NCBI RefSeq assembly: GCF_900130045.1
Contig: NZ_FQXT01000001.1
Location: 434,001 to 498,000 of the forward strand
Length of the DNA stretch: 64,000 nt
Direction of reading: 5' to 3'
From: Leeuwenhoekiella palythoae
Lineage (GTDB): Bacteria; Bacteroidota; Bacteroidia; Flavobacteriales; Flavobacteriaceae
Shown: one piece after another, positions 3,400-53,750 of the stretch
How the letters are laid out: every line of letters begins with the position of its first letter
Numbering within the stretch: the first letter of the stretch is position 1
Program-made: the position numbers and the translations under genes
The notes under the pieces: model-generated
Told to the model about the DNA's origin: nothing
Database searches by the model: none
Seen by the model: only the letters and a program-made list of their open reading frames with translations

Positions 3400-4395
3400 T
3401 CAGATTTTAATAATCATTTTACCTTTGTTCTTTCCATCAAAAAGATCTAGAAATGCTTGAGGAATATTTTCAAAACCTTCTACAATTGTTTCTGTATACA
3501 CTAGCTTTTCCTGTTTTAGCCATTCTGCTAATTGAGCGATAGCTTCTTCAAATTTTGAAGCATAATTAGATACAATAAACCCTTGCATTAGCGCACTATT
3601 TTTTATTAAAAAAGGTTGAACACTTAAGCTTTTAGGAATAGTGGTCTCATTATAAACTGCGATCGCACCACAGTTGATGATGCGTGCATATTTATTAATG
3701 TGATATAAAACAGCATCTGAAATCTCTCCTCCTACGTTATCAAAATAAATATCAACTCCTTCAGGGCAGTGTTCTTTTATTGCAGCAGTTAGATCATCTG
3801 TTGTTTTGTAATTAATACCTGCATCAAAATTAAAATTTTGTTTAAGCATATTAATTTTTTCGTCACTTCCTGCAATCCCCACAACCCTCAGGCCTAAAAG
3901 TTTACCTATTTGGCCTACTATACTTCCAACAGCTCCGGCTGCTCCTGAAACTAGAAGGGTTTCGTTTTCTTTTGGTTTTCCTATTTCGGTAAGACCAGTA
4001 TATGCAGTAAGGCCGGTCATTCCTAAAATTCCCAAATAAGCAGACAAAGGCGCCTTCGACGCATCTACTTTATGTAAATCTTCAGTTGTTATAACTTGTA
4101 AGGTTTTCCAAGGCATTACTTTAGAAACATAATCCCCTGCTTTATAATCTGGATGTTTTGATTCAATAACCTCTGCGATAATACCAGATGTTAAAGGTTT
4201 TCCAACTTCAAATGGTGGGACATATGATTTCGTATCGTTCATACGTCCTCTCAAGTACGGATCTACCGATACATACTTTGATTTCACAAGTAATTCTCCC
4301 TCTTGAGGGTCTCCAACAGATTGTTCTTCAAATTTAAAGTTTCCTAGATTAGGAGTTCCTTCAGGTCGATTATTCAATAAAATTGTTTGTCCCAT
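3400..4395 (-). CDS. NADP-dependent oxidoreductase, zinc-independent MDR family (PTGR/CurA-like)
   Basis: Predicted NADPH-dependent 2-alkenal/enone reductase of the leukotriene B4 12-hydroxydehydrogenase-like medium-chain dehydrogenase/reductase family. The N-terminus ILLNNRPEGTPNLGNF and the segment DPYLRGRMND are typical. The Rossmann loop is SGAAGAVGS, and the catalytic zinc cysteines of classical alcohol dehydrogenases are absent. The frame opens at 4425, but I place the start at the ATG at 4395 (MGQTILLNN), which matches the family N-terminus. Length 331 residues. Monocistronic; substrate unknown. Confidence 0.9.
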   Translation of the reverse strand: MGQTILLNNRPEGTPNLGNFKFEEQSVGDPQEGELLVKSKYVSVDPYLRGRMNDTKSYVPPFEVGKPLTSGIIAEVIESKHPDYKAGDYVSKVMPWKTLQVITTEDLHKVDASKAPLSAYLGILGMTGLTAYTGLTEIGKPKENETLLVSGAAGAVGSIVGQIGKLLGLRVVGIAGSDEKINMLKQNFNFDAGINYKTTDDLTAAIKEHCPEGVDIYFDNVGGEISDAVLYHINKYARIINCGAIAVYNETTIPKSLSVQPFLIKNSALMQGFIVSNYASKFEEAIAQLAEWLKQEKLVYTETIVEGFENIPQAFLDLFDGKNKGKMIIKI

Positions 4396-4707
4396 ATTTT
4401 TTTCTTTAAAATTACAAGACGGCAAACAGTTAAAATGTGAAATATTCTTTTTAATACTTATTTAACTATCTATTGAAGAATAAAAATTAGGTAAGTCGTA
4501 GCTCCATCTTTTAGCGATAGTACTTTACAAGACGACCTCGTTTTATCGATTATTTAAAAGACAATACAAGTTTAAAATCTGAGTTCATCGCCAACATTAT
4601 AAGATATTTGCCTTTGAAAGATATGAGCTTTGCTATCAGACGTTTTAAAAACAACATAACTTTAAAAAGAGACTACAATACCAAAATTATTACAAAGGGG
4701 CTTGGTA

Positions 4708-5445
4708 TTAATCACAGCGTATTTTCCATGCTTTGGCGTGTGGTAAATTTTTACTCGGAATATGAAACCTAAAACTGCTGTAGGCTGCAATGGAATCTTT
4801 GAGCAGCGTCAAAATCTCTTCCTTTAGATAACCAATTTTCTGAAGCATTGCACCGGTAAGTGCGCGGGTGCGCGCATTATAATTCAAAGCAAGTTTAGCA
4901 ATAGTCTTATGCTCCGGGCTGCTCAGCGCTGTAAGCCGCTTGGTCATATGATAACACAATTCTTCTGGTGTTGCGTTGTTAGTGCTATGTACCGCCCGCA
5001 AAACATCAAGAATTTGAAAATAAGGAATGTGCGCTGCAATAATGGGATTATTTTGTTTTACAAAACATATTTTGAACGCACCTCGTTTTATGGGATTACG
5101 CTTTTCTGCCAGCCCCACTTCTAATTGTGTAGCTTTAACAGCATCAAAATCAAAGTTTGCAAATACCGAAGCACCTGTGAGATAACCCACTTGTTGTTCG
5201 CCATCATAAAGCAAATCCTTTACCACCTCATAGGGTTTCAAAAGCTGCTCCCCTTCTGCAAGAATTTCGGGTTTATAGAATTTATCTTTAGCCAATTTGT
5301 TTATCGTTCCGCGTTTTGCAAGGGTATTCAAAAAGTGCTCAACATAATTTTCGTTTTCTGTAAATTCCTTAAAATCGTTATGAGTAAATACGTAGCCTTC
5401 TGGTAATTCTTCAATCTGTTCTTCGAGATGCGCAATCGTTTTCAT
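4708..5445 (-). CDS. DUF6088 family protein (AbiEi-antitoxin-like)
   Basis: A 245-residue protein resembling the DUF6088 / type IV AbiEi antitoxin group. An N-terminal winged-helix-like stretch (roughly residues 10-65, with a typical FTHNDF / KRGTINKLAKDKFYKP run) is followed by a transcriptional-regulator-like middle containing LTGASVFANFDF. Such genes normally sit just before a nucleotidyltransferase toxin (AbiEii-like) gene. Here the next 300 bases downstream on the same strand hold no toxin frame, so it appears to be an orphan. Family assignment is from recalled sequence character. Confidence 0.7.
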   Translation of the reverse strand: MKTIAHLEEQIEELPEGYVFTHNDFKEFTENENYVEHFLNTLAKRGTINKLAKDKFYKPEILAEGEQLLKPYEVVKDLLYDGEQQVGYLTGASVFANFDFDAVKATQLEVGLAEKRNPIKRGAFKICFVKQNNPIIAAHIPYFQILDVLRAVHSTNNATPEELCYHMTKRLTALSSPEHKTIAKLALNYNARTRALTGAMLQKIGYLKEEILTLLKDSIAAYSSFRFHIPSKNLPHAKAWKIRCD

Positions 5446-5950: not shown

Positions 5951-6048
5951 TTATTTAGGCATTTAATGACACCACTTAAAAGTATGGATATCCCCTAAAT
6001 TCTAAGGGGATATGTATATATTTAGTGATGGTATAACGAGTTACCTGC
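5951..6048 (+). repeat. Imperfect palindrome, candidate attC-like site A (5' boundary of cassette 1)
   Basis: The site has an internal 9-bp perfect hairpin (ATATCCCCT / AGGGGATAT, 5988-6014). Partly complementary flanks (ACACCACTTAAAAGTAT against ATATATTTAGTGATGGT) extend it to roughly 100 bases. It ends in GTTACCTGC (6040-6048), whose exact reverse complement closes the unit at 6873-6881. The left arm (R''-equivalent) is degraded. Confidence 0.6.
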
Positions 6049-6064
6049 AAGCTGAAAAAACAGA

Positions 6065-6880
6065 ATGAAGAAAACAATCCTACTTATTTTATTGACAATC
6101 TCAATTACTTCTTGTAAAAGTCAAGAGGAAATTGATTTTAAAGTTGGTTACTTACCAAATTACAATTACACGTTGACCCAAAAACAGATTTCAGAAAACA
6201 ATGTAAAATATATTGCATCAGACGAAATACTTCAAAATTTAAAAAACAACGGAATTGAAAATCCTACTTTAACTAAAGACACAAGTCTTTTAAAAAGTGT
6301 TTCTAAAACAGGAAAACTCAAAGGAAACGAATTTCCGATTAACATAGAATTGTTAGAATCCAACAATCCATCTTTAACAAGTGGAACCAAATTTTTCGGA
6401 AAATCAATTGACGGAAAGACTAGAATTGACTCTATTTATTCTTCGACAATGACAGAAGAAAAAAAGAGAACATTACTTCCTGCAATGGAATCGATGATGA
6501 ATCAAATCAAATATCCTAATAGAAAAATTAAAGTTGGAGAAAGTTTTGAGCAGAAAAACCCAATGTCAATGCCTATTGCAGACGTTACAATAGAAATGGA
6601 AATTAATTCAATTTACACTTTGAGAAAAGTAGAAAACGGAATTGGATATTTTGACCTTGACCAAGTCTACACTATAAAATCTGCAACTAAAGATTACGAA
6701 ATGGAATTGAACGGAATTGGTAAAGGACAAATTGATTATGACATTGAAAAACAATTCTTCACTAAATTCTATTTGGAAATGGAAATGAATTTAAAAACGG
6801 AATTAGAAGTATTTAGTATTGAATTACAAACGAAAAGTATAACAGACCAAACAACGGAAATAATAAAAGCCAGCAGGTAA
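6065..6880 (+). CDS. Putative lipoprotein in cassette 1
   Basis: A 271-residue protein with a lipoprotein signal peptide (MKKTILLILLTISITSCKSQ, lipid-modified Cys 17), so probably anchored in the inner or outer membrane. The mature part is rich in charged residues and short beta-like strands and shows no motif I recognise; a distant resemblance to DUF6263-type lipoproteins is possible but unproven. Codon use is markedly AT-rich compared with flanking housekeeping genes. The ORF starts 24 bases after the cassette's GTT, and its stop codon lies inside the 3' boundary repeat, a layout typical of integron cassettes. No promoter of its own was seen. Confidence 0.75.
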   Translation: MKKTILLILLTISITSCKSQEEIDFKVGYLPNYNYTLTQKQISENNVKYIASDEILQNLKNNGIENPTLTKDTSLLKSVSKTGKLKGNEFPINIELLESNNPSLTSGTKFFGKSIDGKTRIDSIYSSTMTEEKKRTLLPAMESMMNQIKYPNRKIKVGESFEQKNPMSMPIADVTIEMEINSIYTLRKVENGIGYFDLDQVYTIKSATKDYEMELNGIGKGQIDYDIEKQFFTKFYLEMEMNLKTELEVFSIELQTKSITDQTTEIIKASR

Positions 6881-7008
6881 CAATGGCTATAAGTAATTGC
6901 TTGTTCTCGCCTACTTCTGAAAATCCTTGCGGATTTTCAGTTTGGTGTGTACTTGCAAAGTTAAGTGCTAAAACCACGCAACTACTCATAGCCGAGACCG
7001 TTAGCCAC
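6873..7008 (+). repeat. attC-like recombination site B between cassettes 1 and 2
   Basis: About 136 bases with imperfect dyad symmetry. The left arm GCAGGTAAC (6873-6881) is the exact complement of the cassette 1 start. Next come GGCTAT and AAGTAATTGC, partly complementary to GCAACTACTC and ATAGCC on the right, then a central perfect 10-bp hairpin (CTGAAAATCC / GGATTTTCAG, 6917-6940). The right arm is GTTAGCCAC (7000-7008), which begins cassette 2. Bases 6879-6925 recur 46 kb away (53537-53583) with one mismatch. Confidence 0.75.
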
Positions 7009-7025
7009 AAAACTGAAAAAAAACT

Positions 7026-7922
7026 TTGGAAATTGATTTAAAAACTTTTGTAGGACTAAAAGAACTTTATCTCATCGATTCAGTTCCAGCTACTTTTGAG
7101 AGTTTAGAACTTATTACAAAAGCTTCTACTGAATTAATCCAATCAATTTACGATTCTAAACCTGAACTTGGAGAAGGCGAAGTTTTTATAGAAACACTTT
7201 CAATAAAAATTTTACTTGCAACAAAAAGTATTATTGAACTTGGAAATGGGACAAAAGTATCTGCTCTTACAAAAGAAAGTAATGTAAAGCTATTAGATTT
7301 TGCTTCAATAAACATTCTTACACGCTCAATAATTGAGGCATTTCTTACAATGGAATATCTTTTCTACAACAACCTCGAATTGAACGAAAGAAATTTTAGA
7401 TTTTATATTTGGCAAATATCAGGTTATAAAGCAAGACAAATTTTTTTCGAGAAAAGAAAAGGACTCAAAGAAAATGTGACCGAAAAACTGAAAACGGAAC
7501 TTTCAGAGATTGAACGTTTATTGTCTATTATTGAGAAATCACCTTATTATGCTGACTTAAATAGGCAAAATTTATGGAAACTCGATAAATTTGGACTTCC
7601 AAGACTCGTAAGTTGGCAAAAACTAATTGAACAGAGTATATTAAAAACATCATTGTTTGAAACATCATATAAACTCTATTCAAATTATGCTCATTCGGAG
7701 TTTATTTCTCTAATTCAAATGAATGGAGCAAATACTCTAAACAAAGGTTCAAAAGAAAACGACCAATCAATTTTAAATTCTTTGCGAGTTGTAAAAATGA
7801 TTAATTGTATTTCAATGGTTTGCTTAAAGAATAAATTTGATTTTGCTTCCAAAGTATTTGAAAAGTATGACGAGGAGACAAAAACGACAATACTATTTTG
7901 GAATGAATTTGGAACGGGATAA
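7026..7922 (+). CDS. Hypothetical protein, possibly DUF5677/HEPN-like, in cassette 2
   Basis: A 298-residue, mostly helical cytosolic protein. The segments LTRSIIEAFLTMEYLFY and LYSNYAHSEFISLIQMNG are reminiscent of DUF5677-type helical proteins, but I cannot confirm this. The only start compatible with the cassette boundary is a TTG at 7026; no in-frame ATG lies nearby upstream. Composition is AT-rich. The gene starts 25 bases after the cassette GTT and ends 10 bases before the complementary right arm at 7932. Function unknown; cassette-borne genes of this kind are often defence or adaptation functions, which is only inference here. Confidence 0.7.
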   Translation: MEIDLKTFVGLKELYLIDSVPATFESLELITKASTELIQSIYDSKPELGEGEVFIETLSIKILLATKSIIELGNGTKVSALTKESNVKLLDFASINILTRSIIEAFLTMEYLFYNNLELNERNFRFYIWQISGYKARQIFFEKRKGLKENVTEKLKTELSEIERLLSIIEKSPYYADLNRQNLWKLDKFGLPRLVSWQKLIEQSILKTSLFETSYKLYSNYAHSEFISLIQMNGANTLNKGSKENDQSILNSLRVVKMINCISMVCLKNKFDFASKVFEKYDEETKTTILFWNEFGTG

Positions 7923-7931
7923 AAAAGTACA

Positions 7932-7960
7932 GTGGCTAACATTGCTAACCGTTGCACAAG
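7932..7960 (+). repeat. Truncated attC-like site C (3' boundary of cassette 2)
   Basis: GTGGCTAAC (7932-7940) is the exact complement of GTTAGCCAC at the start of cassette 2. Only ten bases separate it from the next GTT (GTTGCACAAG, 7951-7960), so the folded body seen in site B is missing here, probably by deletion. The right half belongs to a 52-bp repeat copied at 10637-10688. Confidence 0.65.
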
Positions 7961-7995
7961 AATGTAAAACGCAATATTATAAACATAAATAAGCC
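7944..7995 (+). repeat. 52-bp direct repeat, copy 1
   Basis: Begins GCTAACCGTTGC and ends TAAGCC. Identical at 45 of 52 positions to 10637-10688, in the same orientation. The two copies bracket the hydrolase / membrane protein / AraC block. Confidence 0.8.
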
Positions 7996-8019
7996 GCTTT
8001 AAGCGGTTTTTCTTTTTTT
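7993..8019 (+). terminator. Probable terminator after cassette 2
   Basis: Short GC-rich hairpin CCGCTT / AAGCGG at 7994-8006 followed by a run of 12 T in 13 bases. Confidence 0.6.
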
Positions 8020-10571: not shown

Positions 10572-10636
10572 ATTTATACTTCTTGACTTTTTTGGCAGGC
10601 ACAATAGAAAGCTGATAGCCACATATCGCTAGTACC

Positions 10637-10688
10637 GCTAACCGTTGCATAAGACTGTAAAACGTAATATTACGAACACAATTAAGCC
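10637..10688 (+). repeat. 52-bp direct repeat, copy 2 (attC-like site D)
   Basis: Matches 7944-7995 at 45 of 52 bases. It contains GTTGCATAAG (10644-10653), a plausible cassette start. The complement expected at the 3' end of the following small ORF is present only in degraded form (TTGCGCAGC, 10982-10990). Confidence 0.7.
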
Positions 10689-10775
10689 TCCTAAAACTTC
10701 TACGCTAGCGGATGTTTTTACGCAACGAAACCAATACCAAACAGGTTAAGCAACATTTGACAAAAATATCTCGTA

Positions 10776-10979: not shown

Positions 10980-11116
10980 CGTTGCGCAGCAAAGGTTGTT
11001 AGCAATAGCACGTTTTCGCCTATTCCAAAATTCCTATAGATTTTCATCTGGTTTATTCTGTATTTAGTAAGTTAGCTGCTTGTACTTAGTAATACTTACA
11101 CAAAGCCGTTGCAACG
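10980..11116 (+). repeat. Diverged attC-like site E
   Basis: Aligns without gaps to the first half of site B (20 of 32 bases around AGCAATAGCACGTTTTCGCC) and continues similarly through the TTCGCCTA, AAAAT, GATTTTCA and AAGTTAG blocks. The left arm (CGTTGCGCAGC) has AGC where the others have AAC, so it is probably decayed. The right arm GTTGCAACG (11108-11116) opens 11 bases before the next ORF. Confidence 0.55.
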
Positions 11117-11740: not shown

Positions 11741-11992
11741 CATACACGCTACTCCCCTTACAATTCATTAGTTCACCAAACCTCTTCTACCTATAACCTC
11801 ACAACAGTAGATGCCATTTTTATGTAAATTGTGTTTTCAAAAACACCCTATTCGTATATCAATATGTAGGTCGTCTAAAGGGATTAATGCAAATACGATA
11901 ACTTCAATTAATTTCTCTTCGTTTAAATACGCCTAACATTGTAACTAATTCTAAGGTTTTTAAACATATAAGTTACAATCAGCAACTACCCA

Positions 11993-13030
11993 ATGGCTTC
12001 AAAGCGTACAACCACGATCATCAGAATTTTACTATTTTCAGCAACGCTCATCTCCTTATATTTTGTTCCTTGGCCTATTGTAAGGGCGTGGATCAAATCC
12101 TTACCTGACACCATTCAAGAGCAAGTGGATAAAGCTCCAGACTATGGTTTTGACGGAATTATCGTCTATATTGATCAAGGCGGAAAAGTGCCTGCCTGGT
12201 ATACTGCAGGTACGCATAGTAGGGAAACGCAAGAACCGGCTCGTGCCGATGCGTTATTTAAAATTGCCAGCGTAAGTAAATTATACACAGCTTTAGCTGT
12301 TACCAAATTAGCAAGTAAAGGGCAATTAGATTTAGATCAATCGCTTGCACATTATTTTCCGGAATTGGCACATCGTATTGAATACGCAGATGAAATCACT
12401 ATAAAGATGTTGGTAAAACACCGCAGCGGAATACCAAACTTTACAGATATCAATTCGTATTGGGCGCATCCTGAAGACAACAATGAAGAACGTCTGGCTT
12501 TAATACTAGATTTACCTGCAGATTTTGCGCCAGATACTGATTACGCCTATTGCAATACCAACTATTTACTTTTGCACGAACTCATTAAAAAAGTAACCGG
12601 CCAGCCATCATTTTATACTATCAAAAAAGAGATTCTCGAACCTTTAAACCTCAACAACACCCACGGCTCTGTGCACGATGTAGATCTAGACCGAGTAATG
12701 AGCGGGTATTATGTGGGCTACGCGCAGGATTTAAAAACCAATGATAACGATCTTATGCTTGCTACAGCTCAAGATCTGGGCGATTTTCTTAGAGCCCTTA
12801 ATGACGGAAGCGTCTTCAATAACCAAGAGGAACGGGATTTGTATGCTTCACTCTATGAATTTGAACACACCGGTTTGATCCCGGGCTATCAAACCATCGC
12901 CAAATATCATAACGAACTCGATGCTGTCGTGATTCAGTTTACCAATACTGTAGATTTTGAAGGCTACAACTGGAATCTTTCAGAAGTGATGTACAACAAA
13001 GTCGTGAAAATTCTAAAACAGAAATCTTAA
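11993..13030 (+). CDS. Serine hydrolase, class C beta-lactamase-related
   Basis: A 345-residue penicillin-binding-protein/beta-lactamase-fold hydrolase. An N-terminal hydrophobic segment (residues 9-28) probably anchors or exports it. The three active-site motifs are visible: SVSK (Ser 93, Lys 96), YCN (186-188) and HTG near residue 294. Members are D-amino-acid peptidases, esterases or carboxypeptidases; the substrate cannot be told. Monocistronic, no convincing regulatory site. Confidence 0.9.
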   Translation: MASKRTTTIIRILLFSATLISLYFVPWPIVRAWIKSLPDTIQEQVDKAPDYGFDGIIVYIDQGGKVPAWYTAGTHSRETQEPARADALFKIASVSKLYTALAVTKLASKGQLDLDQSLAHYFPELAHRIEYADEITIKMLVKHRSGIPNFTDINSYWAHPEDNNEERLALILDLPADFAPDTDYAYCNTNYLLLHELIKKVTGQPSFYTIKKEILEPLNLNNTHGSVHDVDLDRVMSGYYVGYAQDLKTNDNDLMLATAQDLGDFLRALNDGSVFNNQEERDLYASLYEFEHTGLIPGYQTIAKYHNELDAVVIQFTNTVDFEGYNWNLSEVMYNKVVKILKQKS

Positions 13031-52441: not shown

Positions 52442-52593
52442 TATGTTTTGGATTGTCGCGTTGATAACTCGTTGATAAGAGCTTCTGATTTACTGCAGGT
52501 TGCGTTTTCTAAAAGGTTAGTTTTATAATTCTAAATAATGTGGCAAACCGTTTAAGAGATGGGGTATCGAGAATAAATTTCAAGATATAACCA

Positions 52594-52603
52594 GTTGTAA
52601 GCA
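52594..52603 (+). repeat. Cassette 3 left arm
   Basis: GTTGTAAGCA begins 13 bases before the ORF start and is the exact reverse complement of TGCTTACAAC at 53530-53539 after the stop. Confidence 0.7.
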
Positions 52604-52606
52604 ATT

Positions 52607-53524
52607 ATGGAAAAAAAACCTGAATTCCCAGAACTACCGAGTGTTGAAGAAATAAAAACTCTAATTAATGAGTATGAAAATGCTGATTTAAAAAATGTTT
52701 CGTTTAATAAATTATCAGTTCAGTTAAGAAGACTAAAATGGATTCCATTTTTGACAGCTAAATTACATCAAGGTTATCATATTGAAAGAGCAAGAATAAA
52801 CAGACCTGGCGAAATTTTTTATTCAGAAAAAGATATTTCATATAGAAATGACTATGAAAACATAAAGACTTATGGACGAGCAAATGTCAAACATCAATCA
52901 CTATTTTATGGAGCTATTGAATCCGATGTAATTAAACATCCTCGTTTAGTAAATTTAATTGAGACCAGTCAAATATTTAGAAACCTTGATAAAATAAAAG
53001 TTGATAAGGCGGACTTTGTAATGACACTTGGCAAGTGGAGAATAAAACAAGACATCGAAGTAGTTGAAATGGTTTTTAACGAAAACTCAATTAAAAATTC
53101 TAAAGATGTCCAAAAATCATATAAACATCACCTTGAAAGATTAACAAAAGAACATCCTGAAAATTTAGATCAGTTTAAATTAATCTTGGAATTCTTTTCT
53201 AATCAGTTTGCGAAAAAAGAAATAGAAAATGATACGGACTATATGATTTCTGCTGCATATGCAGATTTCGCAATGACTTGGAACAATTTCCCTGGACTTA
53301 AATATCCAAGTGTAAAAAGTGACTATCAAGGACATAATGTTGTATTAACACCAGCAGCAGTTGAACAGTTTCTGGAATTAGAAATTGCTGCAATGTTTCG
53401 AGTTACTAAAAATGGAGAAAATTCGTTGATTTCCCCAATTAAACACGCAACTGAATTTGGACCTCTGAACTCGAATTTTAAATGGGTAGATTACGAACCG
53501 AAAGAATATAAAATTGAACAATAA
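52607..53524 (+). CDS. Hypothetical protein in cassette 3 (weakly RES-domain-like)
   Basis: A 305-residue cytosolic protein, AT-rich in codon use and unlike the neighbouring clpB. The segment RARINRPGEIFYSEKDISYR and GRANVKHQSLFYGA loosely recall RES-type NAD+-degrading toxins (Arg/Tyr and Ser-Leu-Tyr spacing), but this is a guess and no partner antitoxin is visible. It is a single ORF bounded by complementary arms, as in cassettes 1 and 2, 46 kb away. Its start is 12 bases inside the cassette. Confidence 0.7.
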   Translation: MEKKPEFPELPSVEEIKTLINEYENADLKNVSFNKLSVQLRRLKWIPFLTAKLHQGYHIERARINRPGEIFYSEKDISYRNDYENIKTYGRANVKHQSLFYGAIESDVIKHPRLVNLIETSQIFRNLDKIKVDKADFVMTLGKWRIKQDIEVVEMVFNENSIKNSKDVQKSYKHHLERLTKEHPENLDQFKLILEFFSNQFAKKEIENDTDYMISAAYADFAMTWNNFPGLKYPSVKSDYQGHNVVLTPAAVEQFLELEIAAMFRVTKNGENSLISPIKHATEFGPLNSNFKWVDYEPKEYKIEQ

Positions 53525-53529
53525 ATAAC

Positions 53530-53583
53530 TGCTTACAACAATGGCTATAAGTAATTGCTGGTTCTCGCCTACTTCTGAAAATC
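53530..53583 (+). repeat. Truncated attC-like site F (3' boundary of cassette 3)
   Basis: TGCTTACAAC closes cassette 3. From AAC (53537) to 53583 the sequence equals 6879-6925 of site B at 46 of 47 bases, then stops abruptly. The next bases (GTGGTAAA...) look like the right side of a REP element, so the rest of the site has been lost or displaced. Confidence 0.75.
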
Positions 53584-53750
53584 GTGGTAAACAGCTAGAA
53601 TTAACTAAGCACAATACCTCGCTACCGCACGATTAAATCTTTTATAGAAGCTAGAATAACCTCTGCACGATACAATCGCGCAGGAGCAACATAAAGAAAT
53701 AACCCCACCTCGAGTTACCCTCTTGTTACCGCGCGATTGTATCGCGTGGG
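53582..53750. repeat. REP/BIME repeats, group 1
   Basis: Contains a REP right-side fragment (53582-53600), a degenerate copy (53621-53639), one inverted-type copy TGCACGATACAATCGCGCA (near 53664-53682) and one direct-type copy ACCGCGCGATTGTATCGCG (near 53728-53746). Each good copy folds into a hairpin with the loop TGT or ACA. In the 382-base gap (53525-53906) I see nothing else but a weak AGAGCG/CGCTCT dyad near 53811-53858. Confidence 0.75.

Follow-up and report, generated by a model that had tools for sequence, protein, structure and literature searches.

The closest described counterparts of the locus presented here are the integrons, chromosomal superintegrons included, in which a tyrosine recombinase lies at the insertion point of tandem cassettes that share one orientation and mostly contain one open reading frame (ORF) each. 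Every such cassette has complementary ends of its own and, 3' of its ORF, an imperfectly palindromic site that has a GTT core and folds from the bottom strand. All of these traits are shared by the flavobacterial arrays described below. An integron in the strict sense would also have cassettes that move as units, an attI site adjoining the integrase, a Pc promoter for the array, GTTRRRY/RYYYAAC cores, and an integrase that joins attC to attI by way of the folded bottom strand, falls within the IntI clade and carries the IntI-specific domain; the accessible portion of one study calls this domain defining, and the search method used there requires it (PMC9668308). Bacteroidota are among the phyla listed with integrons in the available part of another paper (PMC8618304). 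According to those sections of the IntegronFinder 2.0 paper that could be consulted, hardly any complete integrons occur in Bacteroidetes, and an earlier survey had only In0 (PMC9024848). An 'Integron-like' subgroup of tyrosine recombinases, which are simple enzymes related to Xer and IntI, has also been defined, and the available part of that work does not describe Bacteroidota arrays or sites of the present kind (PMC8138268). No description of these arrays was found in the literature searched, which did not include bioRxiv or most subscription journals, and a report elsewhere is possible.

The window, i.e., the whole 64-kb stretch of DNA that was analysed, contains units that are read here as mobile cassettes of an integron-like Bacteroidota system run by a non-IntI recombinase. 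The probability of this reading is put at about 0.86; recombination itself is inferred, no assay having been made and no circle seen. Units were called with a strict detector, which requires, counted from GTT, 9-10 bases of complementarity followed by the typical mismatch and 3 more matches. Over both strands of the window it returns two units only (6040-6881 and 52594-53539). The features of the window are the following:

5961..6039, + strand: attI-like region, the head of the platform; inverted repeat 5988-5995 / 6006-6013, with TATAACGA at 6032-6039 before cassette 1.
6040..6881, + strand: cassette 1, from GTT to AAC; arms 6040-6048 / 6873-6881; found by the strict detector, with copies in 3 other genomes.
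6065..6880, + strand: ORF 1, 271 aa; sub-threshold Pfam match only.
6882..6999, + strand: site body of cassette 1, attC-like and folding; supported by its occurrence in 30/60 genomes, covariation and folding.
7000..7940, + strand: cassette 2; arms 7000-7008 / 7932-7940.
7026..7922, + strand: ORF 2, 298 aa, TTG start, DUF5677 (Pfam).
7941..8008, + strand: platform tail, in which a few bases of the body precede GCTAACCGTTGCACAAG...; recurs in the genus and where the main array of the same genome ends.
10628..10695, + strand: second, diverged copy of the tail; repeat 79% identical.
10997..11110, + strand: decayed site body; weak profile match (E 2e-4), without matching arms.
52594..53539, + strand: cassette best read as a stray, with a 305-aa ORF at 52607-53521; found by the strict detector and preceded by TATAACCA at 52586-52593.
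53540..53585, + strand: truncated site body of the preceding cassette; body match / profile.

An earlier note, made from the letters of the window alone, had pointed to exact complementarity between the first bases of cassette 1 and a segment that holds the stop codon of its ORF. Both observations stand: the start arm GTTACCTGC (6040-6048) is the exact complement of the end arm GCAGGTAAC (6873-6881), and the TAA of ORF 1 (6878-6880) lies within the latter. Beyond these 9 bases, the pairing continues with 2 mismatched positions and then 3 matches. A folding body does lie between AAC and the next GTT, as the note had it, but it measures 118 nt (6882-6999) rather than 119. The GTT at 7000 directly opens cassette 2 (unit 7000-7940, GTTAGCCAC ... 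GTGGCTAAC), which has the same pattern in a less perfect form; its outer pairing past 9 bases is imperfect, and it is missed by the strict detector. Judged from its N-terminus by eye, the product of ORF 1 is a probable lipoprotein of unknown function. A tblastn search with 11 recombinases gave no convincing recombinase remnant in the window (best E 0.059). Between 53640 and 55200, the window also holds short, repeated, GCGCGATTGTATCGCG-like palindromes, which adjoin an ORF that by eye resembles a REP-associated Y1 transposase.

The arm pattern was set against several controls. In the fetched array stretches, strict units number 286 with a GTT core as opposed to 9 in total for 11 other cores, and 0 in antisense. 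In related arrays, the exact complement of the first 9 bases occurs within 4.5 kb downstream of 106/131 unit starts, while reversed arms gave 2 occurrences. Over 80 loci, the strict detector returns 63 GTT units vs. 14 for 11 other cores, although some AT-rich false matches remain (e.g., one at locus L054 near the recombinase of the window's own genome). A looser detector was noisy over the same 80 loci, with 82 and 61 matches by strand, 41 with reversed arms and, summed over both strands, 480 for six other cores; given this high background, it was left out of the counts. A chance origin of the arm pattern was rejected on the reversed-arm, other-core and antisense controls. The arm counts were taken from the fetched array stretches and from those 23 of the 80 loci in which the looser detector had given units. 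They therefore describe arrays and cannot stand for a random sample; among the stretches, some overlap one another or could derive from a single species.

The anatomy of the units is uniform in plan and variable in sequence. The array loci contain 322 candidate units, as opposed to 26 when the arms are reversed, and 211 of the 322 have 10 matches, 1 mismatch and 3 further matches. In 209 of the 211, the mismatch is an A in the start arm facing a C in the end arm. The arms themselves are variable (134 distinct). The earlier note had remarked that the arm of cassette 1 is not the classical GTTRRRY, and this extends to the arrays in general, since only 22/286 start arms fit; its GTTA, on the other hand, is not the general form, as base 4 is G in 169/286 arms and A in 114/286. 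Thus, the GTTRRRY/RYYYAAC core of integrons is not met, but a GTT/AAC core is retained. Of 251 distinct units no longer than 2 kb, 214 have their longest ORF in sense and 1 has it in antisense, while in 36 it is shorter than 60 aa. The tandem, same-orientation arrangement of cassettes with mostly one ORF each is that expected of integrons. Walking from GTT to the complement of the arm also exposed other families of bodies in the same AAC...GTT frame, the shortest of which has 38 nt.

The note had proposed that homologs of the site body be sought elsewhere, their absence counting against a recombination system. Such bodies are present in 30/60 genomes, the window's own included, with different ORFs between copies. 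They were found in 27/37 genomes of the window's family and in 3/23 others, many of them in same-strand series, and a body profile gave 171 matches in the fetched loci, some of which are the same site in overlapping loci. Some arrays extend over tens of kilobases, and in one genome long arrays occupy approximately 2.215-2.261 and 2.724-2.792 Mb. A site that is 96% identical is carried by a Persicobacter psychrovividus (Cytophagales) plasmid; across 40 kb of this plasmid there are 24 strict units on one strand and 0 on the other. No body match was found in a phage collection. Like units also stand beside related recombinases in metagenome-assembled genomes (MAGs) assigned to Firmicutes (L115), to Spirochaetota (L098) and to no classified group (L103), for which contamination was not checked; at L115, four tandem units are oriented opposite to the recombinase.

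According to the same note, the proposal would have failed had the same ORF always been fixed to the same flanks. This is not what is seen, as the unit of ORF 1 sits behind different flanks. Cassette 1 is found in four contexts, i.e., the window and genomes G156, G155 and G076, each with other neighbors, and in all three of the latter the DNA similarity to the window begins exactly at 6040. The end arm has changed in the G156 copy, and the copy at L161 has imperfect arms. For this recurrence analysis, 4 units from 3 more loci were added, which gave 290 units, 289 of them distinct by context. One genome holds 13 copies of a 438-bp cassette, which are preceded by 11 different 28-base flanks. There are 15 further multi-copy groups, not counting two compound groups that consist of this cassette. 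These data suggest that the cassettes move as units, which meets this property of integrons on sequence evidence only. Copies within a genome mostly retain the same 3' body. Between species, the same ORF and arms occur with different bodies (L160, L162, L163); for instance, the cassette at 52594 in the window recurs in G026, where it stands first in the array behind the recombinase and has another body.

The folding of the site was likewise borne out. As single-stranded DNA in situ, cassette 1 has a top-strand z of -2.1 (6/200 shuffles as good) and a bottom-strand z of -4.3 (0/200). By computed folds only, 162 of 163 sites have a bottom strand of greater stability than the top strand. When a site is given its own start arm, which it would meet in a circle, an arm helix is formed in 161/163; with the neighbor's arm, this happens in 12. 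This sample excluded units longer than 2.6 kb and units without a detected next unit. With its own arm added, the bottom strand of cassette 1 goes from -26.3 to -33.6 kcal/mol. In an alignment of 46 bodies, hand-picked from the profile matches, 93.6% of the outer-stem cells are paired and 9/14 stem pairs change on both sides, with a covariation score of 0.256 vs. 0.055 when shuffled and no more than 0.066 with the partner slid. Own-arm pairing, covariation and strand bias thus support a folded single strand as the substrate, which is still an inference. A covarying stem would equally fit a structured RNA, such as a 3' UTR element or terminator, that was spread with its genes by homologous recombination between copies; the short strong inner hairpin in some bodies and the body swaps between species point in the same direction. 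However, it is the bottom and not the transcribed strand that folds better, Rfam has no match in the window, and the pairing of arms across a whole ORF with a fixed A·C mismatch would be left unexplained. An RNA origin is accordingly considered very unlikely, and the folded sites are better understood as recombination sites of mobile cassettes.

Directly upstream of array heads, several PF00589 matches were found in ten genomes searched. The link between recombinase and array was tested at 51 Bacteroidota loci, of which the 37 with at least 1.5 kb downstream were counted: a strict unit follows on the same strand within 2.5 kb in 26/37 and within 300 nt in 22, units are divergent at 3/37, and there is no unit on either side at 8/37 (one of these 8, L139, groups with Xer). 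For the arms, the IntI rows provide no more than a weak negative control, since 1.5 kb of upstream sequence is available for only 3/12. The recombinase of the window's own genome lies on contig 10 (427956-429125), and downstream of it are cassettes with correct arms and a tail of the window type. Its putative catalytic residues (R229, H318, R321, H344 and Y353) are invariant in 11/11 homologs. Judged by the nearest named recombinases, the host is taken to belong to the Flavobacteriaceae. Of 299 genomes from this family, an even sample of a larger group, 188 carry a relative of the recombinase at E <= 1e-45. In comparison with VchIntIA (2a3v), a structural model of the recombinase has Z 19.1, rmsd 3.6 and 254 aligned residues; with an archaeal Xer, the values are Z 21.7, rmsd 9.7 and 257 aligned. 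Residues 1-90 are hardly covered by the structure comparison, and no known N-terminal domain was found beyond sub-threshold Pfam matches (e.g., DUF5710 at E 0.026).

These enzymes differ from the integron integrases in several respects. The IntI-specific insertion of about 42 residues is absent, so that the integrase-domain criterion is not met: the protein of the window's own genome has 15 residues where IntI has 60, and the distance from box I to box II is 91-96 in 35/35 array-linked rows as opposed to 133-134 in 12 IntI rows. In a tree of 88 rows, the 12 IntI rows form a single clade (SH-aLRT 100), and all array-linked rows fall outside it. The tree is of a quick kind, with five rows skipped or too short and the 'array' label assigned by hand; the array-linked recombinases are not monophyletic in it (20 changes). 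Most enzymes of the flavobacterial type also carry an N-terminal extension of about 95 residues and, unlike integron integrases, mostly point along their cassettes. The one protein scanned, that of G026, reaches 197 bits with TIGR02249 (integron integrase), for which the cut-off is 265. Its best NCBIfam match is XerA (NF040815, named 'site-specific tyrosine recombinase/integron integrase'), as which several plasmid homologs are annotated; however, the score falls just below the cut-off (214.1 bits vs. 220), and the enzyme is linked to cassette arrays and not to chromosome dimer resolution. An ordinary IntI integron whose sites have drifted, or a cluster of attC sites lacking integrase (CALIN) left by one, would account for the common plan, with its arrays, 3' folding sites, GTT/AAC core and recombinase at the insertion point, and integrons are listed for Bacteroidota in the available part of the source cited above (PMC8618304). 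Yet such an origin is improbable in view of the box distance, the IntI clade, the TIGR02249 score and the rarity of GTTRRRY arms. The arms are built as 9-10 bp, a mismatch and 3 bp, are variable, and rarely have the classical form. In all features that could be computed, the system behaves as an integron does. Because three criteria fail (IntI domain, IntI clade and GTTRRRY cores), the system is called integron-like and not an integron in the strict sense. The suggestion in the earlier note of a variant recombination system in flavobacteria has thereby been upheld: its linked recombinase is not IntI, it has an attI-like site, and its arms are mostly not GTTRRRY.

At the heads of the arrays, the junction is TATAACNA followed by GTT, or a near form, in 6/11, a palindrome in 4/11 and a divergent arrangement in 1/11. 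The own-genome recombinase also has TATAACNA and GTT at its downstream junction, like the head in the window. An attI adjoining the integrase is therefore present, as judged from its position and letters and without an assay. The head in the window (about 80 nt before 6040) is a dispersed repeat in the genus, with 11 contexts including the window and a different sequence after each; the copies mostly stop at or near the cassette border. At array ends in the genus, only about 4 body bases remain before the tail. Together with the body swaps, these nearly absent bodies are not expected of classical attC recombination, which is 3'-sided; either there are crossovers at the AAC side as well, or the bodies were replaced or deleted secondarily. 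Because head and tail are dispersed genus repeats, 6040-7940 is best read as a platform without a recombinase of its own, plausibly served in trans, which is an inference. It resembles a CALIN in having sites and cassettes without an adjoining recombinase, but differs in that its attI-like head and its tail are both repeated, so that it is not just a decayed or stray cluster. The cassette at 52594, on the best reading, is a stray at a secondary TATAACCA site. No sister species was found to have the chromosomal site of the window cassettes in an empty state; the upstream search, over 13 genomes, instead revealed the head as a dispersed repeat. Other genus copies of heads and tails of platforms lacking a recombinase are among L146-L159 and L171-L178, and on contig 10 of G000 (338077-339108) a head and a tail stand about 0.9 kb apart, with room for one cassette.

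Dispersed heads and tails could also mean that the units are transposon-like repeats moved by another enzyme (of the IS200/IS605 type, IS110 or REP type), the recombinase being a bystander, and IS110-family elements are indeed located in sites. This is difficult to reconcile with a recombinase that heads the array at most of the testable loci, generally within 300 nt, or with the private arms and own ORF of every cassette, and the IS110 elements are inside the sites of only some arrays. Movement by a transposase as the source of the pattern is hence thought slightly less probable still than a drifted IntI integron, and cassettes moved by the array-linked recombinase remain the preferred reading.

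Several of the loci carry further mobile elements. At L049, an IS110-family element (11888-12905; PF01548, PF02371) directly follows the AAC of a site, and by eye the flank is the same at L047, L050, L051, L055, L061 and L064. IS110-type elements are known to target integron attC sites, which the L049 flank recalls. A Chryseobacterium plasmid (L181, NZ_CP041688.1, 5986-13026) has a recombinase with small same-strand genes behind it, and beyond these come genes for an IS110 transposase and for the maturase of a group II intron. A Flagellimonas marinaquae plasmid (L180, NZ_CP092416.1, 3215-6123) has a xerA-type recombinase and a short divergent array, in which one cassette (4123-5292) holds erm(F) in antisense and the next a gene of the RibD_C/dihydrofolate-reductase family; the array adjoins a Tn3-family transposase, and the plasmid is mobilizable.

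While recombination has not been demonstrated, a mechanism can be proposed. Excision by the recombinase would release a cassette in circular form and bring its two arms together, which would complete a long bottom-strand hairpin. This folded strand could then be joined, at its junction of body and GTT, either to the attI-like site in double-stranded form or to a different site. For the platform at 6040-7940 and the cassette at 52594 in the window, the recombinase encoded on contig 10 would act in trans. The strand choice of attC sites is set by unpaired bases, and here the conserved asymmetry of the A·C mismatch and unequal loops may play this part. Insertion would be favored over excision, an inference from the fact that arms differ between cassettes and so pair fully only in the circle. 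The fuller version of this proposal, i.e., a Xer-derived recombinase without the IntI domain that arose independently of the IntI integrons, acts on folded-strand cassettes, has its insertion biased by circle-fitting arms, and serves several recombinase-less platforms per genome in trans, is held with no better than even confidence.

If confirmed, the system would be a second case in which to ask what single-strand cassette recombination requires, because it lacks the IntI domain that has been described as necessary. That the arms are exactly complementary also makes the question of cassette origin directly testable. The mobilizable Flagellimonas plasmid with erm(F) inside a cassette is among the reasons why the system matters. 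Standard integron searches probably miss it, because both the recombinase and the folded sites differ. The system appears to be common in flavobacteria and their relatives and, if confirmed, would mean that a large gene-exchange system has gone unseen.
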